DNA from: Candidatus Thiodiazotropha endoloripes
GTDB taxonomy: Bacteria > Pseudomonadota > Gammaproteobacteria > Chromatiales > Chromatiaceae
DNA: 64,000 nt
Reading direction: 5' to 3'
Assembly: GCA_001709035.1 (NCBI GenBank)
Contig: LVKA01000008.1
Coordinates: 186,001 to 250,000 of the forward strand
Part shown: positions 26,652-44,656 of the stretch, piece by piece
Numbering within the stretch: the first letter of the stretch is position 1
Layout of the letters: each line of letters begins with the position of its first letter
Translations under genes and position numbers: made by a program
The notes under the pieces: model-generated
Told to the model about the DNA's origin: nothing
The model's database searches: none
The model's input: only the letters and a program-made list of their open reading frames with translations

Positions 26652-27848
26652 CTATCCTGGTCGGCCGTCGATGCGGGGGCGAATCAGTATCGGTAGATAG
26701 ATCATTGAGAACAGCAGATAGCAGATGGACCAGGCAACTGCTGAGAGCATTATACAGGTCTGATAGCTGAGCAGTCCGGTGATCGGAACGAAGACCCGCA
26801 TCACTACGGCGATGTTGATCAATATGAATGCCAGGGCCATAGTTCGATTGGCACCGATCTCCCGGCCGGTATGACCCAGAGCCACCCTGGCCATCATGCC
26901 CAGGGTAGTCACACCGATGGCGCCGGCGGTGAGTGCATGGGTGGCCAGGTTATCTGCAAAGAGTCCAATCTGGGCCATGGCTTTCAGCAGAAAGCCGATC
27001 ACCAGCCAGGCCAGCCCGGCGTAAAGGATCCATAGAATGGGTTTTTTCCATATTTGGGGGTGGTGCCAGTCGTAGAGACGCCAGGCCTGAGTGATGGCGC
27101 CTCCGAGTGCAAACACCATACCTGGCCAGCTGTTCGGCAGCAGCAGGTCGCTTAACGCCCAGAGAAGAAACAGGGCGTAAACGGCCTGCTCCCGCTGTTT
27201 GCTGAAACGGGGCGCGGAGTCTTCAACCGCCTTGTCGGTGAAAAAGGGGAGTACCCTGCCGCCGACGAATATCAACAGTAACAGGATCGAGTTGGTCATC
27301 AGTGAGATGCCGCTTCTGCTTGTCGCCAGAAGGCCCACGGCCTCAAGGTGGTAGAGAAGATTGGCGATGGCCATCACCACCAGCAGAGGTATGAAGAGTC
27401 GGTTGATTCGATTCTCCGCTTTCACCAGGGGTCGGGTAAGGGCCGCAATCAGTGCGGGTAGGAAAAGCAGATCGATCAGCACAAACATCCCCACCAGTGC
27501 GCTCGGCATGAATGGCAATAAACGGCCGGCAAACCAGAGTCCGGCCAGCAGGGCCAACGGCGTACCGGTCGGGGTATCGATACCGGTCCAGTTACGTACG
27601 GCGGTAAGCAGGAACCCGGCAATGATCGCCAGGCTGAATCCGAACAGCATCTCATGGCTGTGCCAGCCGACCAGTGAGTAGTGGCTAAATTGTATCGGGC
27701 TGAGCCAGAACCAGAGCCAGAGCAGCATCAGTGTCAGCCCGGAGATTGCTGCGAGCAGGAAAAACGGACGAAAACCAAGAGCAAACAAGGCATAACCCTT
27801 GGGTGAAGCGTCAGGGGTGCGAGGGTCACCCAATGGAATGATGCTCAA
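26652..27848 (-). CDS. nnrS: NnrS family protein
   Basis: NnrS is a polytopic heme- and copper-containing inner-membrane protein linked to nitric oxide metabolism and protection. The 398-residue protein has about 12 hydrophobic helices and begins with the family pattern 'ALFALGFRPFFLLAA'; 'SLVGWHSHEMLFGFSLAIIAGFLLTAV' (two parts, about residues 58-85) and 'HALTAGAIGVTTLGMMARVALGHTGR' (two parts) hold conserved histidines. A perfect FNR/Dnr palindrome (27907-27920) lies 58 bp upstream of the start, supporting NO-dependent expression with the nor genes at 61.9 kb. Confidence 0.92.
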   Translation of the reverse strand: MSIIPLGDPRTPDASPKGYALFALGFRPFFLLAAISGLTLMLLWLWFWLSPIQFSHYSLVGWHSHEMLFGFSLAIIAGFLLTAVRNWTGIDTPTGTPLALLAGLWFAGRLLPFMPSALVGMFVLIDLLFLPALIAALTRPLVKAENRINRLFIPLLVVMAIANLLYHLEAVGLLATSRSGISLMTNSILLLLIFVGGRVLPFFTDKAVEDSAPRFSKQREQAVYALFLLWALSDLLLPNSWPGMVFALGGAITQAWRLYDWHHPQIWKKPILWILYAGLAWLVIGFLLKAMAQIGLFADNLATHALTAGAIGVTTLGMMARVALGHTGREIGANRTMALAFILINIAVVMRVFVPITGLLSYQTCIMLSAVAWSICYLLFSMIYLPILIRPRIDGRPG

Positions 27849-31786: not shown

Positions 31787-32276
31787 CTTGCTACCTTCAG
31801 TTTGCAGTTGCTCTGCGTGATTGGTCTGACCTGAAAAAATCGTAACAGAGACTTATTCGGTGCGGCTCTCGGTGGTTTGTTTATGCTCAGTTTATCGGAT
31901 CATTTTCCACCATTTTGCATTAACAATCGGACAATGTCTCAGCTGACTGTTGATCACCACAGAGATTATCTCTCAGAGTCTGCCGGTGGTCAGTGAGATA
32001 TGGGGACGGTTGCCTCAGTTGCAAGTCCCTCGGGTCAGACTGGATACAGACAGTGGTTTCCTGGGGAGTCTGGAGCCGGTTACTGCCGGGAGTTGATCAT
32101 TCAAGCGCCAGCTTACGAACCGCTGAGATCTTGGATGTTGGTTTAAGACCGCTTCGCTTGCCGTGGATGGCAACACAGCGATTAGTCGATTGCTGTTTAT
32201 TTACTGAACCGGTTTTTCTCTGCAAACGAAACCGATCATTTATAACTTACCGTTTCTCTTGGTTTTTTGTTTGGTT

Positions 32277-32291
32277 GGAACGGTTTATTCA
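32277..32291. promoter_or_regulatory. Degenerate distal dyad site (second enhancer site)
   Basis: GGAACGGTTTATTCA matches TGAAC-N5-GTTCA at 8 of 10 defined bases. Its centre (32284) lies exactly 32 bp, three helical turns, upstream of the perfect palindrome centre (32316), the same spacing as at 42.1 kb. Confidence 0.45.
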
Positions 32292-32306
32292 CCTGAAGGG
32301 AAGGTG

Positions 32307-32325
32307 ATTGAACGATTCGTTCAAT
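32307..32325. promoter_or_regulatory. Perfect 19-bp palindrome, candidate sigma-54 enhancer site
   Basis: ATTGAACGATTCGTTCAAT is a perfect dyad around one base. The same palindrome, with only the central base changed, occurs at 42068-42086. It is centred 213 bp upstream of the start predicted from the -24/-12 element at 32503-32517, a typical position for an enhancer-binding activator. Confidence 0.65.
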
Positions 32326-32502: not shown

Positions 32503-32517
32503 TGGTACAGATCTTGC
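32503..32517 (+). promoter_or_regulatory. Sigma-54 (-24/-12) promoter match
   Basis: TGGTACAGATCTTGC has the invariant GG and GC separated by 10 bp and fits TGGYACRNNNNTTGC. The predicted start is near 32529, giving a 129-nt leader before the 12-heme cytochrome ATG at 32658. Confidence 0.65.
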
Positions 32518-32657: not shown

Positions 32658-35009
32658 ATGAAACGCCTAGCACTACTTGCAGTAGTGGCGTTGGTTGCTT
32701 GGGGAAGCGGAGGCAATACGCTGACCCCTGTAGCTGAGGCCCAAGGCAAAGCCTGTTTGGCATGTCACGACGGCATAGAACGCTTTAGTGATGGTGTGAT
32801 GCAGGAAGACATTGAAAAGATGGGTGCAGAATTGGGAGACCCGGCCGGCTGTGTGGTCTGTCATGGTGGTAACCCGAAAGAAGAAAAAGATAAAATGAAA
32901 GCCCATATGGGCTCCCCCGCCGGACTAGCGAAAAAGGGTGGACCTAAAAACTTCCTGCCCGATCCTGGCGCCATGCCAGTTAACGACCAAGCCTGTGGCC
33001 AGTGCCACTCTGGATACTATGACCGTCTGAATAAATCCCTGATGAATACTGAGGCAGGTAAACTGCAGGGTAACATGTGGTCATGGGGTTACCAGAAAGA
33101 CATGAAGGTTGTCTGGGGCAACTATGATGTGATGGACGACGATGGTCCTGTACCTCTGGTTGGTACCAAGGCCTACAAGAAGTACATGAAGGACTTCGTC
33201 AAGAAGCATCCGGATCAGATGCCGAAGCGTCTGAAACAGCTGCCACAGGTTGATCTGGAGAAACTGACCGACAATCCCAACCATGCGGGTCTGACCTACT
33301 CCCGTCATGATTGTCAGCGTTGTCATGTTGGTGTGACCGGTCGCGATAAGCGTGGTGACTACCGTGGTTCCGGCTGTTCCGCCTGTCACGTGCCTTACTC
33401 CAATGATGGCTACTATGAAGGTGGCGATCCAACCATCAAGAAGGATGAAGCGGGCCATATCCTGACTCACCGCATGCAGGGCACCCGTAAGACCAAGGTT
33501 AAGGTTGGTGATGTTGAGTTCTCCGGTATTCCGGTTGAAACCTGTGTCTCCTGTCATAACCGCGGTAAGCGTGTCGGCGTGAGTTATCAGGGCATCATGG
33601 AAGCGCCTTACGGTTCTCCTTTCAATGAAAAGGGTAAGAAGCAGCCTAAGATGCACACCAAACGTTACCTGTTCATCAAGGAAGATCTGCACCATGAGAT
33701 GAACTCGATTGCCGGTAATCCTCAGGGTGGCATGCTCTGTCAGGACTGTCATACCACCATCGATCTGCATGGTGATGGCAATATCCCGGGTACCACCCTG
33801 GCTCAGGTCGAGGTCGAGTGTGAAGACTGCCACGGCACCTTCAACAAACTGCCTTGGGATCTGCCGTTGGGTCGTGGCGAAGAGTTTGGTGAGATGAAAG
33901 ACGGTCTACCGACCGCCTACACCAAGCCTCGCGGTCTCGGCAAGAAATGGCCTGAGTACATGAAAGACGCCACTCAGTATGAACCTCAAGATGGCTACCT
34001 GCTGACTGCTCGCGGTAACCCGCTGGGTAATGTGGTGAAGAAGGGTAAGGACGTTATCGTCCACTCCGCCAACGGTCTGGACTTCAGAGTACCTCTGCTG
34101 AAACAGATCGGAGACGAAGGCACCTTCAAGTCGACCCTGGCGAAAGTTTCCATGTTCCTGATCCCTCAACATCAGAACAACATGGAGTGCTACGCCTGTC
34201 ACGCTGACTGGGTACCACAATGTTACGGTTGTCACGTCACCGTCGACTACTCGAAAGGCAATGAGGGTACCGACTGGCTGGTCAACGCCAGTAATCGTGA
34301 TCCCAAGACCGGTCTGACTCCGGATGCGCCTCCTGGCACCAACGGCATGAAGAGCCCTGGTAAAGTCATGGAGACCCGCTCCTACCTGCGTTGGGAGACT
34401 CCGGTACTCGGTATCAATGGTGAAGGTCGCGTCAGCCCGATGATGCCTGGTTGTCAGGTAACCACGACGGTTATCGACAAAGATGGCAAGACCCTGGTCA
34501 ACAACAAGATCTGGGAAACACCTGAAGGTCCCGGTATCGATACCGCCGCTGTACAGCCTCACACCGCTGGCCGTAGTGCCCGTAGCTGTGAGTCCTGTCA
34601 CGACAATCCAAAGGCATTGGGCTACGGTGTAGAAGGCGGTCGCTTCCTGTTGGGTGCCGATAAGGACTTCGTCCTGGATCTGAAGGACTCCGCCACGGGC
34701 AAGATCATTCCTCAGAAGACCCAGGTCCAGATCCCCGGTATCCCCGGTCTGACCTACGATTGGTCTGCGATTGTTACTGAGGATGGCGAACAGCTGAGTT
34801 CCGTAGGTTCTCACTGGCCGCTGACTGGTCCGCTGCCTGACGAGAAGCGTGACGCCATCGAGAAGACCGGTGTCTGCCTCGGTTGTCACGAAGAGCGCTT
34901 CAATCCTGACTTCTGGCAGAAGGTATCCGAACCTGGCGTTATGGATAGCTTCGAGCACCAGCAGTTCATGAAGAAAGCGCTGAAAGCGATTGCTGCCCAG
35001 AAGAAGTAA
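32658..35009 (+). CDS. Periplasmic 12-heme cytochrome c (candidate terminal reductase)
   Basis: The 783-residue protein has a Sec signal peptide (cut near residue 28) and twelve CXXCH heme motifs starting at residues 33, 65, 113, 219, 240, 296, 361, 388, 511, 522, 644 and 740. No CX15CH or CXXCK variant was seen. The stretch around heme 11 (SCHDNPKALGYG) is reminiscent of long multiheme cytochromes of metal-reducing bacteria, but I do not recognise a named family. A NapC/TorC-type quinol-oxidising cytochrome follows, so this is probably the periplasmic electron acceptor or reductase of a respiratory chain. A good ribosome-binding site (TTGGGAGTCTGATA) precedes the ATG. Promoter: sigma-54 type with palindromic enhancer sites. 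Substrate unknown; sulfur oxyanions, metals or metalloids are possible. Confidence 0.85.
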   Translation: MKRLALLAVVALVAWGSGGNTLTPVAEAQGKACLACHDGIERFSDGVMQEDIEKMGAELGDPAGCVVCHGGNPKEEKDKMKAHMGSPAGLAKKGGPKNFLPDPGAMPVNDQACGQCHSGYYDRLNKSLMNTEAGKLQGNMWSWGYQKDMKVVWGNYDVMDDDGPVPLVGTKAYKKYMKDFVKKHPDQMPKRLKQLPQVDLEKLTDNPNHAGLTYSRHDCQRCHVGVTGRDKRGDYRGSGCSACHVPYSNDGYYEGGDPTIKKDEAGHILTHRMQGTRKTKVKVGDVEFSGIPVETCVSCHNRGKRVGVSYQGIMEAPYGSPFNEKGKKQPKMHTKRYLFIKEDLHHEMNSIAGNPQGGMLCQDCHTTIDLHGDGNIPGTTLAQVEVECEDCHGTFNKLPWDLPLGRGEEFGEMKDGLPTAYTKPRGLGKKWPEYMKDATQYEPQDGYLLTARGNPLGNVVKKGKDVIVHSANGLDFRVPLLKQIGDEGTFKSTLAKVSMFLIPQHQNNMECYACHADWVPQCYGCHVTVDYSKGNEGTDWLVNASNRDPKTGLTPDAPPGTNGMKSPGKVMETRSYLRWETPVLGINGEGRVSPMMPGCQVTTTVIDKDGKTLVNNKIWETPEGPGIDTAAVQPHTAGRSARSCESCHDNPKALGYGVEGGRFLLGADKDFVLDLKDSATGKIIPQKTQVQIPGIPGLTYDWSAIVTEDGEQLSSVGSHWPLTGPLPDEKRDAIEKTGVCLGCHEERFNPDFWQKVSEPGVMDSFEHQQFMKKALKAIAAQKK

Positions 35010-35082: not shown

Positions 35083-35241
35083 TTCCCCCTCGATTTGAGC
35101 GCTATGATCATCATCGATGCCGGTGTTGATCAGAGAGGCTGCATGCTTTACAGCGTCCAGCCTTTGGCCGACAAGAGGTCTTGATGACAAAGTGAATGAC
35201 AATTCTCGTGTTGATTGGCGGAACTAATTGGTAGGAATGTG

Positions 35242-36360
35242 ATGAAAATGAAAGCTTTCAGTTGGTTGACGCTGAGTGTCGGTATCATCGCCGGCATAGT
35301 TCTATGGGGTGGTTTCAACACCTTCATGGAATATACAAATAGTTATGAATTCTGTACTTCCTGCCACGAAATGAATGTTGTGCAGGGAGAGTATGAGCAG
35401 TCGGCTCATGCCCATAATCCCTCAGGGGTTCCGGCAATCTGTTCAGACTGTCATGTACCAAAACCCTGGGGTGCCAAACTGGTGCGTAAAATCCAGGCGA
35501 CGAAAGAGCTCTACCATTGGGCGCTGGGTACCATCGATACTCCGGAGAAGTTTGAAGTATACCGTCTGCAGCTGGCACAGAATGTCTGGTCGACCATGGA
35601 ACAGAGTGACTCCCGTGAGTGCCGCAACTGTCATACCAATGAAACCATGCTGACTGAAAAGCAGACTTCACTGGCGCAAAAGATGCACAAAAAGCTGCTG
35701 AGCGGTGAGCAGACCTGTATCAACTGTCATAAAGGCATTGCTCACAAACTGCCGAACATGGAGAAGCTCTACGGGGATATGGAGGCCGAATATCTGGCTG
35801 AGGCGCACAGTGCTCAACTGGCTGATCAAGCCGTGGTAGTACCCCATGAAGTGGCATTGACCGCAACCCCGGGTGGCGACGATCCTCTGGCAACGTTATA
35901 TGGCGGTACGCCATTGGTGGTTGTTAAACAGGAGGGGGATTGGGTTCAGGTATCAAGCGAAGGTTGGGACAGGGAAGAGGGTAGCCAGATCTTCATCGAC
36001 TTCAATCGGGCTGTCGCTCTGGCTAAGATGAGTTTTGACGGCATGGATCGGGTAGAGAAAATCGAGAGCAAGCTGGAGCCTGAGTATGAGTTGACGTGGA
36101 ACCGGATCAAACTCACCGGATGGGTGCCCCGTAGTGCGATTGGACCAAGCGAGGAGCGCTACTGGGAGTATGTGACCGATCTCCATGAGCTGGACTGCAA
36201 CTTGTGCCATAAAACCTATCCGCGGGATAAGTGGATCATGTTTGATTGGCGCAATAACCTGAAGGAGATGCGCCGTTACACCAAGTTGAGCCAGGAGCAG
36301 TTACAATTGGTCAGTAATTGGGTGCTGCGTGGCGCACGTAACGATTCGGAGGCAGATTGA
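35242..36360 (+). CDS. NapC/NirT-TorC-type pentaheme membrane cytochrome with SH3-like segment
   Basis: The ATG at 35242 (after TAGGAATGTG) gives 372 residues. An N-terminal helix (about residues 7-24) anchors a NapC/NirT tetraheme domain with CXXCH at about residues 38, 67, 127 and 149. After a linker, a segment 'GTPLVVVKQEGDWVQVSSEGW' region (in two parts) resembles an SH3-like fold, and a fifth CNLCH lies near residue 319. This layout resembles TorC. Such proteins oxidise menaquinol/ubiquinol and pass electrons to a periplasmic reductase, here presumably the 12-heme protein encoded 232 bp upstream. The next gene overlaps the stop by one base (TGATG), so they are translationally coupled. 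Confidence 0.85.
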   Translation: MKMKAFSWLTLSVGIIAGIVLWGGFNTFMEYTNSYEFCTSCHEMNVVQGEYEQSAHAHNPSGVPAICSDCHVPKPWGAKLVRKIQATKELYHWALGTIDTPEKFEVYRLQLAQNVWSTMEQSDSRECRNCHTNETMLTEKQTSLAQKMHKKLLSGEQTCINCHKGIAHKLPNMEKLYGDMEAEYLAEAHSAQLADQAVVVPHEVALTATPGGDDPLATLYGGTPLVVVKQEGDWVQVSSEGWDREEGSQIFIDFNRAVALAKMSFDGMDRVEKIESKLEPEYELTWNRIKLTGWVPRSAIGPSEERYWEYVTDLHELDCNLCHKTYPRDKWIMFDWRNNLKEMRRYTKLSQEQLQLVSNWVLRGARNDSEAD

Positions 36361-36935
36361 TGAACAAGCCTGTTGCAACGGCTCTGTTACTCTCGATGAT
36401 TGGATTCGGAGTTGCTCCTGCGTTGGCCAAAGCGGCCGATGAGCCCGGCATGCAGGCGCAGCAGACGCCGATGAAACGGGATCACCTGTTCGAAGAGCGG
36501 GCGGGAACCTGGAAGGCGACTTGCGATGAGATGGAGCAGAGCAAGGTCTACTGCCGTATGTTTCATATCGAGCAGTTCGGTGAGTGGAAAGCGAAGAATT
36601 TTATCCAGCTGGGGCCTGCATGGACGCCCGATTCGGTTGGTTTTGTGGTTGCCACCTATCAGGGTTTCAAGGCCGGAACAACGGTTACCATCGGTATCGA
36701 TAAACAGAGTCGGCATAAGATCACGGCACCGAAAGGCAACAATCTGATGATCTCTCCCGATATCGCTGCGAAAATCCTCAAGGAGATGGAGCAGGGACAC
36801 AAGATCGTGGTGACCTTCAACTCTCACAGTGGCGTGCGCCATCTCACCCTGGCTGAGTTGGGACCCTATCAAGCGTTGTTGAGCAAAGTGAAAGGTCAAT
36901 TGGCCAAAAACAGTCAGTCAGCGAGTGCTGAATAG
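36360..36935 (+). CDS. Periplasmic IalB-like protein
   Basis: The 191-residue product has a Sec signal peptide (cut near 'ALAKAA') followed by a compact beta-rich domain containing 'GTWKATCDEMEQSKVYCRMFH' region (split, two cysteines about eleven residues apart) and a hydrophobic C-terminal part ending 'LGPYQALLSKVKGQL'. This resembles invasion-associated locus B (IalB) family proteins, small periplasmic proteins of unknown biochemical role often found near cytochrome or copper genes. The family call is by general pattern. Start ATG overlaps the preceding stop and has GGAGG eight bases upstream. The next gene starts 23 bp downstream. Confidence 0.55.
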   Translation: MNKPVATALLLSMIGFGVAPALAKAADEPGMQAQQTPMKRDHLFEERAGTWKATCDEMEQSKVYCRMFHIEQFGEWKAKNFIQLGPAWTPDSVGFVVATYQGFKAGTTVTIGIDKQSRHKITAPKGNNLMISPDIAAKILKEMEQGHKIVVTFNSHSGVRHLTLAELGPYQALLSKVKGQLAKNSQSASAE

Positions 36936-36958
36936 GCATGGATGGGAGAGGAGGCGTT

Positions 36959-37888
36959 ATGGCTAAATTCTTCGTAACAGTCATTGCACTCTGCCTGGGC
37001 GTAATGACGCCGCTGGTTGCCGGTGAAATGAACGGCGAACAGACTTCACAAAAGAGTTTTCGCGTGGGGGTTACCCAACCGCCCATGTTTACACTGGCAT
37101 CTGCCCTGGCCTGGGGCAGTCCGGTGGAGGTTGTGTTGGTGGAGCGGGACCAGAGTGGGGATTGGAAGATCCCCACCGGTCTTACCGTACTCTTCTGGAG
37201 TGGTGCGACACTCGAGCCCGAACTTGGTAGACAGTTGAGTGAATCCGGTCAGGCGGCTGTCTCGCTGATCGATGCGGCAGGTGTGCATCAGCTGGCCAAG
37301 CGGACCCCGGCAGACTGGAAGGGTCCGAATGAAGATGAAGATCCGCACATGGAGTCTCTGGGCAAGGGCTATGGCATGGTGCAGACGATTCGGCCGGAAG
37401 GCATGATCGACACCATGTACTGGCTCGATCCATTAAACGCGATGGCGGCCCTGGAAGCGATCACCATGGTCTATCAGGGATTGGATCAACGCAACCACTG
37501 GGCTTATCAAGGTAACTCGGATCAGATTATTCAGGCCCTGTGGGAGTTGGATATCCGGGTTAACAAGCTTCTGCATGAAGCCAGCAGTCAGCCGTTTGTG
37601 GTCCTGCAGGATGAGTTTCAATACCTTGAACAGCGCTATAAGCTGCATACGGTCCCTGCCGGTGGAACGGCCCAGGATATCGTCGATAAAGCCAAGGCCA
37701 GAGGGGCTAAGTGTGTGGTGGCGGCAGAACCTTTTGATCAGCATCTTATGTCGGTGCTGGATCAGGCCGGTTTGAACCGGGTGGTTTTGGATCCCGCCGG
37801 TCAACAGATGCCGAAAACCACGGGTGGCTACTTTCAGTGGTTTGGCAATCTGGCCTCCAAACTGAATGATTGTGTGATCCGCTCCTGA
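36959..37888 (+). CDS. ZnuA/TroA-fold periplasmic protein with altered metal-site residues
   Basis: The 309-residue protein has a Sec signal peptide and the general sequence of a cluster A-I metal-binding protein (ZnuA/TroA): 'GLTVLFWSGATLEPELGRQL', '...DTMYWLDPLNAMAALEAI...', 'VVLQDEFQYLEQRYKL' and 'CVVAAEPFDQHLM'. At the three positions where such proteins usually place metal-binding His residues, I read Met43 (in TQPPMFTL), Met153 (in DTMYWLDP) and Gln217 (in VLQDEFQYL). That predicts loss of zinc binding and possibly a Met-based copper or heme site. No ABC permease is nearby; it is inside a cytochrome operon. The ATG at 36959 has an ideal GGAGAGGAGG site. The rhodanese gene overlaps its stop. 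Confidence 0.65.
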   Translation: MAKFFVTVIALCLGVMTPLVAGEMNGEQTSQKSFRVGVTQPPMFTLASALAWGSPVEVVLVERDQSGDWKIPTGLTVLFWSGATLEPELGRQLSESGQAAVSLIDAAGVHQLAKRTPADWKGPNEDEDPHMESLGKGYGMVQTIRPEGMIDTMYWLDPLNAMAALEAITMVYQGLDQRNHWAYQGNSDQIIQALWELDIRVNKLLHEASSQPFVVLQDEFQYLEQRYKLHTVPAGGTAQDIVDKAKARGAKCVVAAEPFDQHLMSVLDQAGLNRVVLDPAGQQMPKTTGGYFQWFGNLASKLNDCVIRS

Positions 37889-38796
37889 TGGATTCGCTGT
37901 TACGCATCCTGGCGCTGCTGGGATGTCTCGGGCCACTGGATCTTTTGTCTGCCTCGTTACCGGTACTGGTGAATGGAGCCTGGCTCTCCGAGAACCGACA
38001 TGAGGTTGTTGTGCTTGATGTCAGATCCCGTGCCGAATTCATGGCAGGTCATTGGCCGCAATCCCGCTGGGCCGGTTTCAATGAGCTCGATTGGCAGGTT
38101 GAGCGTTACGGACTGCCCGGGTACCTGCCCGGTGAGAATGGACTGGCAGCTCTATTGGGCAGTCTCGGATTGGCGGGGCAGGAGTCTGTGATTGTCGTCG
38201 GATCCGCCAGAGGTCCCAGGCAGATTGCAGAGGCATCGCGTGTTGTCTGGAGCCTGATGATGGCTGGTTTTCAGCAGGTGGCGCTGTTGGATGGAGGTAT
38301 TGAGTCTCTCTCCAGTGATGATCTGCAACAGGGTATCTCATCCATTGAGGCGAAGCGGTGCACCATCAATTGGCAGCCTGATCTTTTGGCCGACAGCAAT
38401 CGGGTGGAGGATCTGCTGGACAACAACAGACCGGTAATTGATTTCCGTCCAAGCCTCTATTTTGATGGCTACAAGCGTGATCCGCAGGTAGCTGAAGGGG
38501 GCACGATTTACGATGGTGTGGGGATACCGCCTGTGCGTCTGCTGGATAAGAATACCGGGCGGTTCCTACCAGTGGAGAGACTGCAGCAGGAGTTTCAGCG
38601 TTATGACATCCAGACAACAGGGTCAGTTGCCGCATTCAGCGATACCGGTGTCTGGGCCGCATTGGGTTGGTTTGTGCTGCACCAGATTCTGCAAAACCCG
38701 AATGCCCGGCTCTATGATGGCTCCCTGGTGGAGTGGATAGACTGGGGTGGCGAGATGCATGACAGTACCGATGATATGGGTGGCCCAATCGGTTAA
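37888..38796 (+). CDS. Periplasmic tandem rhodanese-like protein lacking catalytic Cys
   Basis: The ATG at 37888 overlaps the preceding stop (TGATG). The 302-residue product has a signal peptide (about 20 residues) and two rhodanese domains: the first with 'VVLDVRSRAEFMAGHWPQS' and 'VVGSARGPRQIAEASRV', the second with 'VIDFRPSLYFDGYKRD' and 'AAFSDTGVWAALGWF'. The sulfur-carrying Cys normally found in the CxxGxR/T loop is replaced by Ser in both. It therefore probably binds a sulfur or oxyanion ligand or acts as a structural partner rather than transferring sulfane sulfur. It resembles rhodanese-like proteins found beside multiheme cytochromes in Geobacter ext clusters only in general layout. 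Confidence 0.8.
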   Translation: MDSLLRILALLGCLGPLDLLSASLPVLVNGAWLSENRHEVVVLDVRSRAEFMAGHWPQSRWAGFNELDWQVERYGLPGYLPGENGLAALLGSLGLAGQESVIVVGSARGPRQIAEASRVVWSLMMAGFQQVALLDGGIESLSSDDLQQGISSIEAKRCTINWQPDLLADSNRVEDLLDNNRPVIDFRPSLYFDGYKRDPQVAEGGTIYDGVGIPPVRLLDKNTGRFLPVERLQQEFQRYDIQTTGSVAAFSDTGVWAALGWFVLHQILQNPNARLYDGSLVEWIDWGGEMHDSTDDMGGPIG

Positions 38797-38832: not shown

Positions 38833-39621
38833 ATGCAACAGGATTACAGCTTGAATGGAAAAAACATCAAACAAATGATTCTCCCACTCTTGGGCCTGCT
38901 TGTTCTGCCTCTCCTGGCAATCGCGGAAGGGACGCCTTTCGGTTGGCAGAGAGAGGTTACTGCGCTTGTTTCTCAGCTGCAGTACAAAGAGGCAGGAGAG
39001 AAGTTGAAAAGCTACTGTGTGGATGAGAAAAGTGGTGAGCTTTGCCTGGTTCTGGCCTCTGCCTATTTTGAAGGTGAGATCAAGTTCGGTATTGAAACAA
39101 AAGATATCGTTGAAGCCTACAAATATACCAAGCTTGCCTGTGACTATGGTTCCGAGTCCGGATGTGAGGCCTATAAAGGGGCTGTTGAGAAGGGGGAGCT
39201 GCTTCAATTGGTGCTGTATGAACCTGGCATTGTGGATCGGGGTGCACAACTGAAAAAGGCGATCCAACAGGGATTGGATCTGAATGTGACAACCATGTTC
39301 AGCAGGACGCTTCTGCAAGAGGCTGTCAGTGAGGAGAAGGGGGAAGCGGTCAAGTTATTGCTGGAGAATGGCGTGGACGTCAACTATCGGGTCAGTGAAG
39401 AGGATCTGACACCGCTCATGTATGCCATCAATACAGGCAATCAGGAGTTGGTCAAGCAGCTGCTCGAGTATGGTGCTGATGTGAAACAGACGATGATCGC
39501 GCCAGACTATCTGAAAATGGAGAAGGACGTTGTGGATGCCTGCGATTTTGCCAACAAACTGGAAAAGCGCGAAATGTCAGTGTTGTTGAAGTGTGGCGAT
39601 AGAACCGTAGCCCAGGAGTAG
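38833..39621 (+). CDS. Exported Sel1-like/ankyrin repeat protein
   Basis: The 262-residue product has an N-terminal signal peptide (hydrophobic 'ILPLLGLLVLPLLAIAEG' near residues 16-33). Residues about 40-125 contain a Sel1-like Cys-containing helical repeat ('CVDEKSGELCLVLASAYFEG...ACDYGSESGCEAY', split), and about 130-235 ankyrin repeats ('RTLLQEAVSEEKGEAVKLLLENGVDVN', 'TPLMYAINTGNQELVKQLLEYGADV', each partly shown). It lies 36 bp after the rhodanese gene and is probably the last gene of the multiheme unit. Such repeats mediate protein-protein contact; a scaffold role for the cytochromes is only a guess. Confidence 0.75.
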   Translation: MQQDYSLNGKNIKQMILPLLGLLVLPLLAIAEGTPFGWQREVTALVSQLQYKEAGEKLKSYCVDEKSGELCLVLASAYFEGEIKFGIETKDIVEAYKYTKLACDYGSESGCEAYKGAVEKGELLQLVLYEPGIVDRGAQLKKAIQQGLDLNVTTMFSRTLLQEAVSEEKGEAVKLLLENGVDVNYRVSEEDLTPLMYAINTGNQELVKQLLEYGADVKQTMIAPDYLKMEKDVVDACDFANKLEKREMSVLLKCGDRTVAQE

Positions 39622-39760: not shown

Positions 39761-40198
39761 TCATCGCTCTCTGAAATAGTAGTGACAGTCACCACAACTC
39801 ATGCGCACATCGTTGACAGCTCGTTTCATTGTTTTCATATCACTTGGGTCGACCGTTTTAAGCGCCATGATCTTACGGCGATTGTGCTGTATGGCGCTTT
39901 GAAACCCTCGTGGATCGCTCCAGATCAGGGCCAGTGCCTCTGACTCCGGGTGTTGATCCCCGGCCGGGAATAGATCCTGGTAGATATCATTGAGGTTCAA
40001 CAATGCATCCACATGGGTTGGGATGTGGTTTTCGATCGACAGTTCACCCTTTACATAACCTTGCAGAGCTTTCAGATGATTGGAGGCATTTTCCATGATT
40101 CTTGAGCGATAGTGATAGATCTCCTCCACACTGTCATCCGTGGTGGCGGTGGCTGGCAGCAGCATTAAAATCAAACTGAGACTGGCAAGAAGTTTCAT
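39761..40198 (-). CDS. Cytochrome c'-like (class II) periplasmic protein
   Basis: The 145-residue product has a Sec signal peptide (cut after 'LLPATAT') and a helical body with a single heme motif CGDCH close to the C-terminus, the arrangement of class II cytochromes (c' / c556). These bind NO or CO or carry electrons. It is the last gene of a minus-strand unit starting at 41769; the dispersed hairpin at 40243-40275 lies between it and the TlpA gene. Ribosome-binding site AGAGGAAAC precedes the ATG. Confidence 0.8.
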   Translation of the reverse strand: MKLLASLSLILMLLPATATTDDSVEEIYHYRSRIMENASNHLKALQGYVKGELSIENHIPTHVDALLNLNDIYQDLFPAGDQHPESEALALIWSDPRGFQSAIQHNRRKIMALKTVDPSDMKTMKRAVNDVRMSCGDCHYYFRER

Positions 40199-40242: not shown

Positions 40243-40275
40243 TAGGGGCTGTTGGATTAGGGTTAACAGGCCCTA
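40243..40275 (+). repeat. Dispersed GTTAAC repeat, full-length hairpin copy
   Basis: Arms TAGGGGCTGTT and AACAGGCCCTA are inverted repeats with one mismatch around GGATTAGGGTT. This is the complete form of the element whose right arm recurs across the window. It sits within a minus-strand operon and may act as an mRNA processing or stability hairpin. Confidence 0.65.
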
Positions 40276-40869
40276 ACGCAAACTAGCTTCGTTTAAACTC
40301 ACATCGAGGCAGTTGCTCAGCAACTGCAGGACTGGCTTGCTTTCCCAATCCACCGCACCGATCAGCATCCCTTTTACCATACCCTGCTGATCGACAAACA
40401 GGGTCTGGGGCAGGGCGCCGATCCTGTGGTCGTAGGAGATTTTACCAAACCGGTCAGCTGCAACCGGCAGATGGGTGATTTCATGGGTTCGATAGAATCG
40501 GTTTGCTTCCGAGACACCCTTCCCGTCCCGGACCAGAGGGAGGATCATCAATTGGTCCGGTGAGATGCGAGCCTGAAGCCGATCCATGGATGGCATCTCC
40601 TCTCGGCAAGGGGTACACCAGGTAGTCCAGAAATTGACCAGTAACGCACGTGGGCCTGGGAGCGTATCAAGAGGGACCTTTTGCCCTTCGCTGTTATAAA
40701 ACGCGTTTCTGGAAACCGGTTTAGGGTCGGCATAAGCACGGAAATGACCGCTTCCGAATGCCTGGCTTTGGCATCCTTGCGGAGCCTGCGGCTCTGCTGC
40801 CACAGGCCCCGAGATGAGGATAAGTCCAAGCAGGAGCAGCTGAGTGCTGCGAGGTTTGAAATAAGTCAC
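40273..40869 (-). CDS. TlpA/ResA-like periplasmic thioredoxin
   Basis: The 198-residue product has a signal peptide (cut after 'SGPVAA') and a thioredoxin fold with active site WCTPC in 'FWTTWCTPCREEMPSM' and cis-Pro loop 'GALPQTLFVDQ'. TlpA/ResA proteins reduce disulfides in apocytochromes or oxidised periplasmic partners. It overlaps the DUF302 gene stop by four bases, showing translational coupling. In a block of c-type cytochromes it could keep heme-binding Cys reduced, or handle sulfur substrates. The stop overlaps the end of the dispersed repeat at 40243-40275. Confidence 0.87.
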   Translation of the reverse strand: MTYFKPRSTQLLLLGLILISGPVAAEPQAPQGCQSQAFGSGHFRAYADPKPVSRNAFYNSEGQKVPLDTLPGPRALLVNFWTTWCTPCREEMPSMDRLQARISPDQLMILPLVRDGKGVSEANRFYRTHEITHLPVAADRFGKISYDHRIGALPQTLFVDQQGMVKGMLIGAVDWESKPVLQLLSNCLDVSLNEASLR

Positions 40870-41303
40870 TGGACGGCTTGCTGTGCCAGCTGCGCGAATA
40901 CCTGGTCCAGGTCATCCAGCAGGCGGCAATCCTCCAGGCTGTAGGTGCTGCGCAGAGAGCTGGGTTTGCGGTAGATCACCCGGGTGCCCACATCATCCTG
41001 GAATACTGCAATTTTAAGCGGTAACTCCAATCCGGCGGCGGGATCGTGCCACATGATGCGCGCATTCTGGTTTGATTTGCCGAATGCGATCACCTTTTTC
41101 ACAGAGTTTGCATCACCGTGGTCGTAGACAGAAAAGACTTTGAAACGCTGTTCTGCGAGCTGCTTTTTCAAGCTTTCCACGATCTCGTTGGCAGAGGCCT
41201 TGGCTTCGATTTTTACCAGATCACCATCGGCTGCCAGTAGTGGGGTAATCATTAACAGGGTTAACAATGGGAGTAGGGTAATACCCCTTAGTAAACGGCT
41301 CAT
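40866..41303 (-). CDS. DUF302 family periplasmic protein
   Basis: The 145-residue product has a signal peptide (cut near 'TPLLAA') and a DUF302 domain with 'RFKVFSVYDHGDAN' and 'GLELPLKIAVFQDD..TRVIYRKP' patterns, a small fold of unknown role often beside cytochromes, copper or sulfur genes. It follows the cytochrome c gene by 43 bp and overlaps tlpA-like by four bases, so it belongs to the same transcript. No metal or catalytic residues can be assigned with confidence. Confidence 0.82.
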   Translation of the reverse strand: MSRLLRGITLLPLLTLLMITPLLAADGDLVKIEAKASANEIVESLKKQLAEQRFKVFSVYDHGDANSVKKVIAFGKSNQNARIMWHDPAAGLELPLKIAVFQDDVGTRVIYRKPSSLRSTYSLEDCRLLDDLDQVFAQLAQQAVQ

Positions 41304-41346: not shown

Positions 41347-41769
41347 TTACTTTAACGACTTCAAGAACTCGATTACGTTCTTGCGTTGCTTATCCGACAT
41401 CGGTTTCACGCCGACAACAGGAAACGCCATTTTATTGTCCGGGATGAGCGCTTTGGGATCCTGCAGATAGGCGTCGAGCGTTGCTTCATCCCAGACGATG
41501 GAATCCGCTTTGCTGAGATGTGCAGCAGAGTATTCATAGCCTTCCACTGAACCGGCAGATTTTCCATACACCCCCCAGAGTGGTGGGCCAACCCTGTTTT
41601 GTTTTTCTGCCGTGATGTCATGGCAGGCAAAGCACTGCTTAATGGCGACTTTCTTCCCCTTTTTCACCATCTTTTTAATCTTTTTGGCATCATCCATCGC
41701 CATCACTTCAACGCTGGCCAGCGGTAGGGCAATGACAATAGCCAGGGCAATCAGAGCAAACTTCTTCAT
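41347..41769 (-). CDS. Class I monoheme cytochrome c
   Basis: The ATG at 41769 (AGGAG seven bases upstream) gives 140 residues with a Sec signal peptide and one CFACH motif followed by a class I cytochrome body: 'RVGPPLWGVYGKSAGSVEGYEYSAA', split, and an axial Met probably in 'DNKMAFPVVG'. The C-terminal helix 'KQRKNVIEFLKSLK' is typical. This is a soluble periplasmic electron carrier of the c2/c552 type. It is first in the unit cyt c - DUF302 - TlpA - cyt c'. A sigma-54-type promoter and enhancer-like palindromes lie upstream. Confidence 0.88.
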   Translation of the reverse strand: MKKFALIALAIVIALPLASVEVMAMDDAKKIKKMVKKGKKVAIKQCFACHDITAEKQNRVGPPLWGVYGKSAGSVEGYEYSAAHLSKADSIVWDEATLDAYLQDPKALIPDNKMAFPVVGVKPMSDKQRKNVIEFLKSLK

Positions 41770-41880
41770 CAAAAAACTCCTAAAAACTGGAAACCTGCTG
41801 AAGTAGAAACAGAAGTTTCTACTGAGAGAGTTCCGCGTATGTGTTTAATACAGCATGGGTTTTGCTAACTTGAGTATGTC

Positions 41881-41895
41881 GCAATATCCATGCCA
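41881..41895 (-). promoter_or_regulatory. Sigma-54 (-24/-12) promoter match, minus strand
   Basis: On the minus strand TGGCATGGATATTGC has GG and GC separated by exactly 10 bp, fitting TGGCAYRNNNNTTGC. The predicted start is near 41869, 100 nt before the cytochrome c ATG at 41769. Confidence 0.7.
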
Positions 41896-42067
41896 GTCGA
41901 AGTGGGTTTTGTCGGTTTCCCTTTGCAGGAATTGACCGGTAACGGTAAGGGGCCGATATATGTTTGAAAGTTGGGGAATCATCGGCCTAAGGCGTCTCCA
42001 GTCTGAATCCTTCCGAGATCGTTTACAGTTGATCCTTGGCTTGTTGATTGCCTGTAAAGGCTGTGAA

Positions 42068-42086
42068 ATTGAACGAATCGTTCAAT
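42068..42086. promoter_or_regulatory. Perfect 19-bp palindrome, candidate sigma-54 enhancer site
   Basis: ATTGAACGAATCGTTCAAT equals the palindrome at 32307-32325 apart from the central base (A here, T there). Its centre is 208 bp upstream of the predicted minus-strand start at 41869. Confidence 0.68.
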
Positions 42087-42101
42087 CGAAAAACATGGAT
42101 A

Positions 42102-42116
42102 TGAACAGACCGTTCC
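42102..42116. promoter_or_regulatory. Near-perfect distal dyad site (second enhancer site)
   Basis: TGAACAGACCGTTCC matches TGAAC-N5-GTTCA at 9 of 10 defined bases. Its centre is 32 bp further from the promoter than the perfect palindrome, repeating the geometry at 32284/32316. Confidence 0.55.
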
Positions 42117-42260
42117 AGAGATTCCGAAGTCAGCAGTTAAAGAGACAGTTCCTGGATCACTAGGTTTACCCTTCGGAACAGACATCGTATTATCCCAGCA
42201 GCTTGAGGAAGTACCGGTAATGGGGCTCCGGGCTGCTGATTATTCATCGGGAGGCAAGGT

Positions 42261-42705: not shown

Positions 42706-44178
42706 TTAGAAACTCAAATCCACTGCAAACAGCAGCATGCCCAGTAGCAGCAGCAGACCCAGGGCAACCATACTCAAACCAAATCCAAAGAAAGCGATCT
42801 GTACCGCGCGGGGTGGCTGGGTAATGATGCGTTGTTGTAGATTGCCTTCGTTCTGCATGCGTTCGATCCAGGCGGGATGCTCCTGCTCCAATGCCTGAAG
42901 TTCGGCTGCGCCATGGAAAATATGTGCATTCAACGGGAAGGCGCTGGGGCGATAACTCTCGATAAAAAAGTGCACCACAAAAATGTGAGCCATCGCCAAG
43001 ATGGCCTCCACCTTGTGGATCCAGCGGGCCACATTCATCATCCATCCAGGCAATACTGATGTGGTGAGCACTGAATCAAACATCACCAGACCGGTTGTGC
43101 CAACGATCACCAGTCCCCACCAAACCGCCCAGTAGTCGAACTTCTGCCACCAGGACCAACGGTCGAATACCGGATGCTCTCTTCGACCAAACAGCCAGGC
43201 CATATGCTGATGAATCGCCTTGAAATCATTCCAGGTCCAGACCAGGCTGTCCGGTCCTCTGAGAAAGCCAGGTTTGCCGATCACCGCAGAGCGAATCAGG
43301 TAGATGATATGTGCGCTGAATATTCCCAGCAGCATCAGACCGAAAAGTCGGTGAACCCATACCGCACCTTCGGCACCGGCGAATGGAAGTGCCAGCAACT
43401 TGCCGAATTCGGTTTCGATGGTCATCCATGCCACACCGGTCAGAGAGAGCAGCATGAAACAGACGATAAGGCCTGTGTGCAGCCAACGTTCACCCGGGGA
43501 AAATCGTTCTATCAGAAGACTCTGGCTATCGGCTTGAGTGGTTTCCCCCCGCTGTATCCAGTGTTGTCTGATTTCACGCCAGGCCCAGACTGAGGTGTAG
43601 GGCATGAAGAACAGAAACACCCCAAACGCCAAAGCGAGAATCGCCATGGTTGACCAATAGAGGGCGGGGAATCCTTCCCGGGTCTGTCTCGACCAGGGGG
43701 GCTTCTCATGGATTAGATAGCTGCCCATGCCGGGGCCGGCGTTTTCGTGACATTTGGCGCAGACCTTCTCGTAACGGTGTTCCGCAAAGGCCGCCGCGTT
43801 TGGGTTGTTTATGCCGGCCACAGGTTTCGAGATGTGGCAGTCCCGGCAGACCAGTTCGGTACGGGCATAGTGCAGATTTTTCTGCTGCCCTTCGTGGCAG
43901 CTGAGACAGTAGCGGGCGTGGTAAAAGGATTTTACATTTTCATGAGCATCCGCGTTGACGGAGTTGCGTCTTACCGGCCCCTGTCCTGGGCCAATGGACT
44001 CTAGCCAGCTGCTGTGTTGTTTGTCAGCAGGCATGAACAGAGTGGGATCGTTGGGATCCTCAAAGCCCCTGTCTGCCAAGGCTGAGTGGCTGAACAGAGC
44101 CATCAGGCAGACTAGACAGCCGGCAATGCCCAACCTGCGAATCAGGTGGTAGCGACAGGGAAAGGGGTATTGCGCCAT
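42706..44178 (-). CDS. Fusion of triheme cytochrome c and cytochrome b561-type membrane domain
   Basis: The ATG at 44178 gives 490 residues. After a signal/anchor segment, a periplasmic domain has three heme motifs: CLSCH (91-95), CRDCH (111-115) and CAKCH (140-144). From about residue 165 there are five or six membrane helices with the FdhI/NarI-like cytochrome b pattern 'ERWLHTGLIVCFMLLSLTG', 'VWVHRLFGLMLLGIFSAHIIYL' (split) and 'VARWIHKVEAILAMAHIFVVHF' (split), giving several histidines for b-hemes. The protein could exchange electrons between quinone and periplasmic c-type carriers without a separate subunit. No molybdoenzyme partner is nearby; the neighbours are soluble cytochromes and the 12-heme system. 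Confidence 0.82.
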   Translation of the reverse strand: MAQYPFPCRYHLIRRLGIAGCLVCLMALFSHSALADRGFEDPNDPTLFMPADKQHSSWLESIGPGQGPVRRNSVNADAHENVKSFYHARYCLSCHEGQQKNLHYARTELVCRDCHISKPVAGINNPNAAAFAEHRYEKVCAKCHENAGPGMGSYLIHEKPPWSRQTREGFPALYWSTMAILALAFGVFLFFMPYTSVWAWREIRQHWIQRGETTQADSQSLLIERFSPGERWLHTGLIVCFMLLSLTGVAWMTIETEFGKLLALPFAGAEGAVWVHRLFGLMLLGIFSAHIIYLIRSAVIGKPGFLRGPDSLVWTWNDFKAIHQHMAWLFGRREHPVFDRWSWWQKFDYWAVWWGLVIVGTTGLVMFDSVLTTSVLPGWMMNVARWIHKVEAILAMAHIFVVHFFIESYRPSAFPLNAHIFHGAAELQALEQEHPAWIERMQNEGNLQQRIITQPPRAVQIAFFGFGLSMVALGLLLLLGMLLFAVDLSF

Positions 44179-44656
44179 CTTTAACTCGGGTTCAGCCAAC
44201 CTCTAGGGATTTTCTCAGCCACACTCAACAGATCGGTATAGTGAATGACAGCCTTCCTGTTGATCGATCTGGATCGGTTTACCGGGTAGCCTCCGGAAAC
44301 TGAATATTTAATGTGAGCCTGAAAGTGGTGTTTCAGTTTGTTTGTGCCGAACTATTGTCCCTGGCCTGTAAACAACAATATATATGGCTTGTGCCGATCT
44401 TTCATGCTTTGTATGCTGCGAGAGAGATTATTAATACCTAGTGATATTGGGGTTTTCCCGGTGATGCCGTGTATTTGGTTCATGATGTGGTGTTCAGGTG
44501 GAGTCTGGCTGGTTCTGTTGTGATTCATGCCGTTGTCTGTTAACGGGTGCAACATTGTGACACGACGCTGCCATACTTGACGCAGTTATCTGGTAAGGTG
44601 ATCAGAATGGACTTTCAGAGAATGTTTCGAAGGTCGACAAAATAGAGAAAACTGTT
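44179..44656. other. Intergenic region between divergent genes
   Basis: 478 bp between the cytochrome b/c fusion gene and the NrfJ-like gene. It must hold promoters in both directions. I see no dyad of the TGAAC-N5-GTTCA type, no sigma-54 match with correct spacing and no small gene. Confidence 0.4.

Follow-up and report, generated by a model that had tools for sequence, protein, structure and literature searches.

We asked whether two promoters that face each other from about 10 kb apart in Candidatus Thiodiazotropha endoloripes, which groups with symbionts of lucinid clams, are controlled together and, if so, by which regulator. Both lie in the window (the whole stretch of 64,000 nucleotides that was analysed). 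The explanation that we favour, and hold to be very probable, is that one sigma-54-dependent two-component system, whose genes lie on another contig, has its only strong sigma-54-linked sites of this genome at these two promoters, and that its kinase and activator would switch both operons on together.

Sites and genes of the two operons

The sigma-54 -24/-12 element of operon 2, TGGCATGGATATTGC, was found with correct spacing on the minus strand at 41881-41895, just as the initial annotation had it. Operon 1 carries its own element, TGGTACAGATCTTGC, on the plus strand at 32503-32517. The -24 GG and -12 GC that characterize sigma-54 promoters are present at both in the TGGCAYRNNNNTTGC spacing, and each scores 11 of the 13 positions that were counted. 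Upstream of each element we observed a predicted activator site A, which is a perfect palindrome of 19 bp with the exception of its central base (ATTGAACGAATCGTTCAAT at 42068-42086 in operon 2, and ATTGAACGATTCGTTCAAT at 32307-32325 in operon 1). The distance from the palindrome to the -24/-12 element is about 190 bp at both promoters. When the start site was placed 12 nt past the -12 GC (an inferred start), we could reproduce the centres of -208 and -213 that had been annotated for this common palindrome. The second site that had been proposed 32 bp further upstream is real at both loci. This predicted site B (TGGAACGGTCTGTTCAT at 42101-42117 on the minus strand for operon 2, and TGGAACGGTTTATTCAC at 32276-32292 on the plus strand for operon 1) has its centre exactly 32 bp upstream of the palindrome. 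It is weaker than site A and asymmetric (TGGAACGGTYTRTTCAY), and agrees with TTGAACGANTCGTTCAA at 11 of 16 positions in each operon.

Operon 1, on the plus strand, begins with a 12-CXXCH cytochrome, DHC (32658-35009), that is distantly ExtM-like (NCBIfam NF040943). DHC looks secreted, with a signal-peptide-like start, and the number of CXXCH motifs is 11 in some relatives. A PDB sequence search with DHC gave no convincing solved relative (best E 0.04), and the mean pLDDT of its predicted structure was 27. The next gene encodes a TorC/NapC-like pentaheme cytochrome (35215-36360; PF03264), a probable quinol dehydrogenase that scores over the Pfam NapC/NirT cut-off and reaches 279.2 bits with TorC (TIGR02162), below the cut-off of 478.2. 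It is followed by a 192-aa protein with no family match (36357-36935), a ZnuA-like periplasmic metal-binding protein (36938-37888; PF01297), a rhodanese-type sulfurtransferase (37870-38796; PF00581) and, as the last gene, an ankyrin-repeat protein (38833-39621; PF12796).

Operon 2, on the minus strand, encodes a class I cytochrome c (41347-41772; Pfam PF00034), a DUF302 protein (40866-41303; PF03625), a TlpA/ResA-like thioredoxin (40273-40869; PF00578) and a cytochrome c' (39761-40198; PF01322). The two operons are arranged tail to tail, with 140 bp between them. No terminator-like site was found between these convergent operons, and this is a point against the explanation that we favour. Adjoining operon 2 is a gene for a cytochrome b561-type membrane protein with CXXCH motifs (42706-44199, minus strand), and an NnrS protein is encoded 4-5 kb before operon 1 (26652-27848, minus strand). 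The NnrS family is linked to nitric oxide stress.

Rarity and conservation of the sites

The initial annotation considered the sharing of these sites very unlikely by chance, and the counts in the genome bear this out. The 18 fixed bases of the palindrome occur perfectly at just two places in the 4,870,787-base genome, both of them in the window, against about 7e-5 exact matches expected (by our own arithmetic). Two further places match with 3 mismatches, and a control with the reversed pattern gave none. With the looser pattern TTGAACN5GTTCAA and up to one mismatch, we observed 28 places in the genome versus 8 for the control. This excess of looser sites in the organism's own genome counts against an explanation by a regulon of two promoters. 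A frequent palindrome without linkage to -24/-12 elements had been named as the result that would speak against co-regulation. This is not what was found, since among the 28 looser places the window sites are the only ones with an 11/13 sigma-54 match within about 350 bp. A 10/13 match occurs at three others, beside palindromes of 11-14/16, and the site at C24:105249 has a 15/16 palindrome without a sigma-54 match.

We also scanned the contigs of genomes described as 84,980 species for the exact palindrome. The scan returned 27 stretches, with a chance estimate of about 4 for the scan as a whole; 15 of them fall among the predicted targets treated below and 12 do not. Four of these 12 represent one shared locus, in two Desulforhopalus genomes, a Desulfofustis and a Desulfobulbaceae genome (L062:5246, L073:2875, L076:5962 and L083:4897). 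It has no sigma-54 sites and, judged from gene lengths and order alone, looks like a ribosomal-protein operon. Of the remaining eight, five lie inside open reading frames. In a Planctomycetota MAG (L084:4825), an exact palindrome is seen near the gene of an activator that is 44% identical over 297 aa to EBP_L018. No sigma-54 match was found near this palindrome, which is either a chance occurrence or a site of another regulator.

Conservation of the motif in relatives was a check that the initial annotation had suggested. DUF302 orthologues with at least 69% identity were present in 7 of the 210 genomes of the order, our own included. In all seven, the palindrome of the operon 2 promoter is complete (16/16), site B (10-12/16) lies at -32 and, counted from the start of the palindrome, a -24/-12 match is present at +189 to +193. 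Conservation was then counted by column, with six genomes for each operon. Site A is invariant at 18 of 19 columns in operon 1 and likewise in operon 2, site B at 14/16 and 13/16, and the -24/-12 element at 12/15 and 10/15, respectively. The corresponding figures for the spacer between site A and the -24 element are 29/177 and 15/172. Sites A and B and the -24/-12 element are thus kept, while the spacers drift.

A candidate two-component regulator

The regulator of both promoters is most likely a histidine kinase together with an NtrC-type activator, encoded at G000:C10:732459-736559. The kinase (G000:C10:732459-735059), with a PF21623 sensor, two PAS domains, HisKA and HATPase, is encoded directly upstream of the response regulator EBP_L021 (G000:C10:735186-736559), which has a receiver domain (PF00072), an AAA+ domain (PF00158) and a Fis-type HTH (PF02954). 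This domain make-up and the adjoining partner kinase are those of an NtrC-type enhancer-binding response regulator, and GAFTGA, presumably the sigma-54 contact loop, could be read in the sequence. Among the best 25 of 110 NCBIfam families, EBP_L021 remains below the cut-offs of the equivalogs ntrC (400.1 against 558.6), AtoC (397.8 against 714), ZraR (383 against 760) and PEP_resp_reg (357.6 against 502.6). Sigma-54 itself is encoded by rpoN, with one PF04552 match in the genome (C10:211559). There are 26 matches to PF00158 in the genome, 20 of them strong (E of about 1e-48 or better) and 6 weak, and none of the 26 lies within the window. The kinase-activator pair is on a different contig from the operons and is unlinked to them in this genome, and this non-linkage counts against the assignment.

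In relatives, the activator gene is found beside the sites. At L068, an activator 63% identical to EBP_L021 is encoded directly upstream of a palindrome pair and DHC, and at L078 and L080 an orthologue of EBP_L021 (78%) is directly upstream of a further palindrome pair. The HTH contains the stretch SRPRLRR, which is identical in 12 of 12 aligned activators, taken from both the DHC set and the HEAT-cluster set (the HEAT cluster is described below).

We evaluated the association of activator and palindrome across the 210 genomes of the order, using cut-offs of E < 1e-100 for DHC orthologues and E <= 1e-150 for the activator. DHC orthologues were present in 36 genomes, the activator in 51, and both in 18. 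(DHC matches at E <= 0.001 occur in 44 genomes; the 8 weak ones, with E > 1e-100, were not counted as DHC.) The promoter comparison covered those DHC genomes that offer 300 bp or more upstream, 33 in all, so that G185 (gene at the contig edge), G189 (fragmentary) and G164 (180 bp upstream, scored) were left out of the 36. We observed a palindrome of at least 14/16 upstream of DHC in 16 of the 17 activator-positive genomes, and in none of the 16 activator-negative genomes, where the best palindromes were 8-11/16. The association gave a Fisher value of 1.5e-8 with kinship ignored; since the genomes are related, p-values such as this overstate the evidence. The exception was G039, which has both the activator and DHC, with a palindrome of 12/16 (a score reached by 6 of 200 shuffles). 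The G039 activator groups with the HEAT-cluster activators in the tree. In 6 of the 17 genomes (G016, G030, G044, G128, G190 and G192), the activator gene and the DHC promoter are no more than about 5 kb apart.

Co-regulation of the operon pair, under one sigma-54 activator, is therefore supported as a prediction: in this genome no promoters but these two carry the palindrome, 7 of 7 operon 2 genomes keep the sites, and the presence of the palindrome at DHC follows one activator.

It could also be that a different sigma-54 activator binds the palindrome. The genome has 20 strong matches to such activators, and the sites are like the upstream activating sequences of XylR/DmpR, in which TTGA...TCAA palindromes come in pairs, with about three turns between them, before sigma-54 promoters. 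By eye, two genes of this genome (G000:C10:30872 and C7:604627, or L009 and L013) look XylR/DmpR-type (V4R). As regulators of the two operons these were dropped, because the promoter-adjacent gene in relatives is an orthologue of EBP_L021. The implicated activator is a response regulator and not a V4R-domain protein. Furthermore, the presence or absence of the palindrome agrees with EBP_L021 in 32 of the 33 DHC genomes, an agreement computed for EBP_L021 alone of the 20 activators. We consider a different activator, be it one of these look-alikes or another, to be unlikely.

If EBP_L021 and its kinase are the regulator, general knowledge of NtrC-type activators suggests how control would be exerted. 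The kinase would phosphorylate the activator upon a signal, and the activator may then bind as a higher oligomer to site A (ATTGAACGANTCGTTCAAT) and to site B, the weaker of the two, on one face of the helix, the sites being 32 bp (three helical turns) apart. From there the bound activator would loop over about 185 bp to the -24/-12 elements, and the sigma-54 polymerase would be opened there in an ATP-driven manner. Both operons would then be turned on together: the one that encodes the 12-heme cytochrome and the TorC-like quinol dehydrogenase, and the one opposite it, for cytochrome c, DUF302, TlpA and cytochrome c'. Electrons from quinol may pass through the TorC-like protein to DHC and on to an acceptor, with operon 2 possibly providing helper or detoxifying electron carriers. 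We infer a role in periplasmic respiration or detoxification.

Traces of turnover were seen in close relatives, among which G124, G127, G130, G131 and G142 are genomes of the same genus. In G124, G127 and G129, the region that follows the activator gene is drifting, except for the palindrome pair and the -24/-12 element, which are conserved as blocks. The promoters at L078:3960-4522, L080:923-1490 and L212:7200-7696 are followed by a remnant of DHC. In a search of five loci, this remnant of the DHC C-terminus was detected in G124, G127 and G129 with E values of 5e-13, 1e-12 and 5e-6, the last with internal stops; G128 still has the DHC gene where these three have the remnant. We take the L078, L080 and L212 sites to be an old promoter, retained after loss of the gene for the 12-heme cytochrome. 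The search for DHC gave no match in G142 (loci L199:7759-11730 and L200:5388-7963). The sigma-54 promoter is kept in this genome, where the gene that now follows it is, by eye, a homologue of window gene 44657; both operons are thus missing here. The G142 kinase gene is split into two frames, which encode 328 and 547 aa. Missing targets alongside a damaged kinase fit a functional link, as a single case.

A second module and the relation to known systems

A further set of genes, which we refer to as the HEAT cluster, was observed in G123 (L198:2552-16067), with related loci at L202-L210 and L218-L235. The order in G123 is HEAT-repeat protein, CARB (a small, exported-looking, CarboxypepD_reg-like protein), UspA/PCP_red, AhbD/NirJ-like radical SAM/PCP_red, protoporphyrinogen oxidase, a 110-aa protein, kinase and activator. 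In other genomes, part of the HEAT-cluster genes were placed, by homology. The cluster has tetrapyrrole-related domains, and no function for it was found in the open-access literature searched.

We examined the HEAT promoters at 24 loci, 20 of which have a readable HEAT frame (L220, L236, L237 and L070 are without one). The activator is downstream of the HEAT gene, on the same contig and strand, in 18 of these 20; the L074 and L075 stretches are too short. A -24/-12 match of at least 10/13 was present in all 20, and in 18 it lies at -51 to -68 from the called start. The best palindrome in the 400 bp upstream of HEAT scored 12-16/16 in every one of the 20 (the shuffle mean was about 9.7), and in 17 it beat all 200 shuffles. 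Summed over the promoters, the palindrome scores came to 274, whereas the shuffles and a reversed control motif each came to 194. At 10 of the 20, a pair of palindromes that each score at least 11/16 was seen with a spacing of 41-43 bp (about four turns). The HEAT cluster is probably under the same kind of regulator.

The HEAT promoters also bear on the question of whether the palindrome might be the operator of an ordinary repressor or activator, with the -24/-12 matches being accidental. Operators are typically perfect inverted repeats, and TGGYAN6TTGC by itself occurs 4 times in the window against 1.37 expected. However, in both operons the -24/-12 element lies at a nearly constant distance and its columns are far better kept than those of the spacer; palindrome and -24/-12 element are again present at 20 of 20 readable HEAT-cluster promoters; and a sigma-54 activator is encoded next to the promoter in relatives. 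We regard an ordinary operator as very unlikely. A recent duplication or repeat, with the sequence shared through ancestry and not through shared control, would suit two neighbouring loci with two sequence blocks in common, but it is scarcely credible here, as the operon 1 and operon 2 promoters of this genome are alike (by eye) at sites A and B alone, and both have retained these sites while their spacers drifted.

CARB was used as the marker of the HEAT cluster, with a cut-off of E <= 1e-20. It was present in 43 of the 210 genomes, and 31 of those have the activator. CARB and a DHC orthologue (E < 1e-100) were never found together (0/210; hypergeometric 1.1e-4, kinship ignored), and G029 has CARB with a distant DHC-like protein (E 6e-27, 33% identity). 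In a tree built with the activators of 38 genomes out of the 51, the HEAT-cluster activators and that of G039 form one group with a support of 0.989, and support for the branching order among the rest is weak. Neither module always accompanies the activator, since 18 of the 36 DHC genomes and 12 of the 43 HEAT-cluster genomes are without it at the cut-off used. We put forward, tentatively and with more doubt than confidence, that one kinase/activator family may drive two unrelated and mutually exclusive modules, the 12-heme cytochrome operon and the HEAT cluster, through the same motif, as alternative answers to the same signal.

Three known systems can be compared with the favoured regulator and its operons. 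The part of PMC6335251 that we drew on describes TspS/TspR of Acidithiobacillus caldus as a sigma-54-dependent two-component system with a palindromic site, TGTCCCAAATGGGACA, and the sox cluster as its target, thiosulfate being the potential signal. Common to both cases are a sigma-54 two-component system in a sulfur oxidiser, a periplasmic redox cluster and a palindromic upstream site, but the site sequence and the target genes are different here. In Desulfovibrio, according to the portion of PMC4641369 used, the gene of the sigma-54 activator DVU3142 is beside the ohc octaheme operon, which has predicted sites, and one species keeps a regulated remnant of the ohc operon. Relatives studied here likewise have the gene of a sigma-54 activator close to a multiheme cytochrome operon that carries predicted sites; however, ohc is an octaheme complex in Desulfovibrionales, and the likeness is one of gene arrangement. 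ExtM is a cytochrome of the Geobacter ext selenite/tellurite cluster (PMC5877670, in part). Its family, NF040943, is the best NCBIfam match of DHC, but at 227 bits against a curated cut-off of 800, and there was no match to a porin family among the six operon 1 proteins. ExtH of the ext cluster is rhodanese-like, and its match to the operon 1 rhodanese is weak (27 of 200 bits).

From the parts of these sources cited, it is already known that sigma-54 two-component systems control redox genes in sulfur oxidisers, and that the gene of a sigma-54 activator can adjoin a multiheme cytochrome operon. No earlier description of this regulator with its motif and gene set was found in the open-access literature searched (mostly titles and the starts of abstracts), and the portion of the Thiodiazotropha paper PMC6712303 that was consulted has nothing on these operons. 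The predicted regulon is a new sigma-54 two-component regulon of a known type.

What was an anonymous pair of promoters can now be described as a predicted regulon, for which a candidate trans-acting regulator, a predicted binding motif and a testable set of genes are named. Both operons hold proteins of unassigned role, such as the 12-heme cytochrome and the DUF302 protein. The predicted shared control suggests that operons 1 and 2 act together, and so a phenotype for one operon would be informative about its partner. Through the same motif, the conserved HEAT cluster came to light in related genomes as well. If one regulator family does serve both modules, it would be a handle on an undescribed electron-acceptor pathway as well as on an undescribed tetrapyrrole-related pathway.
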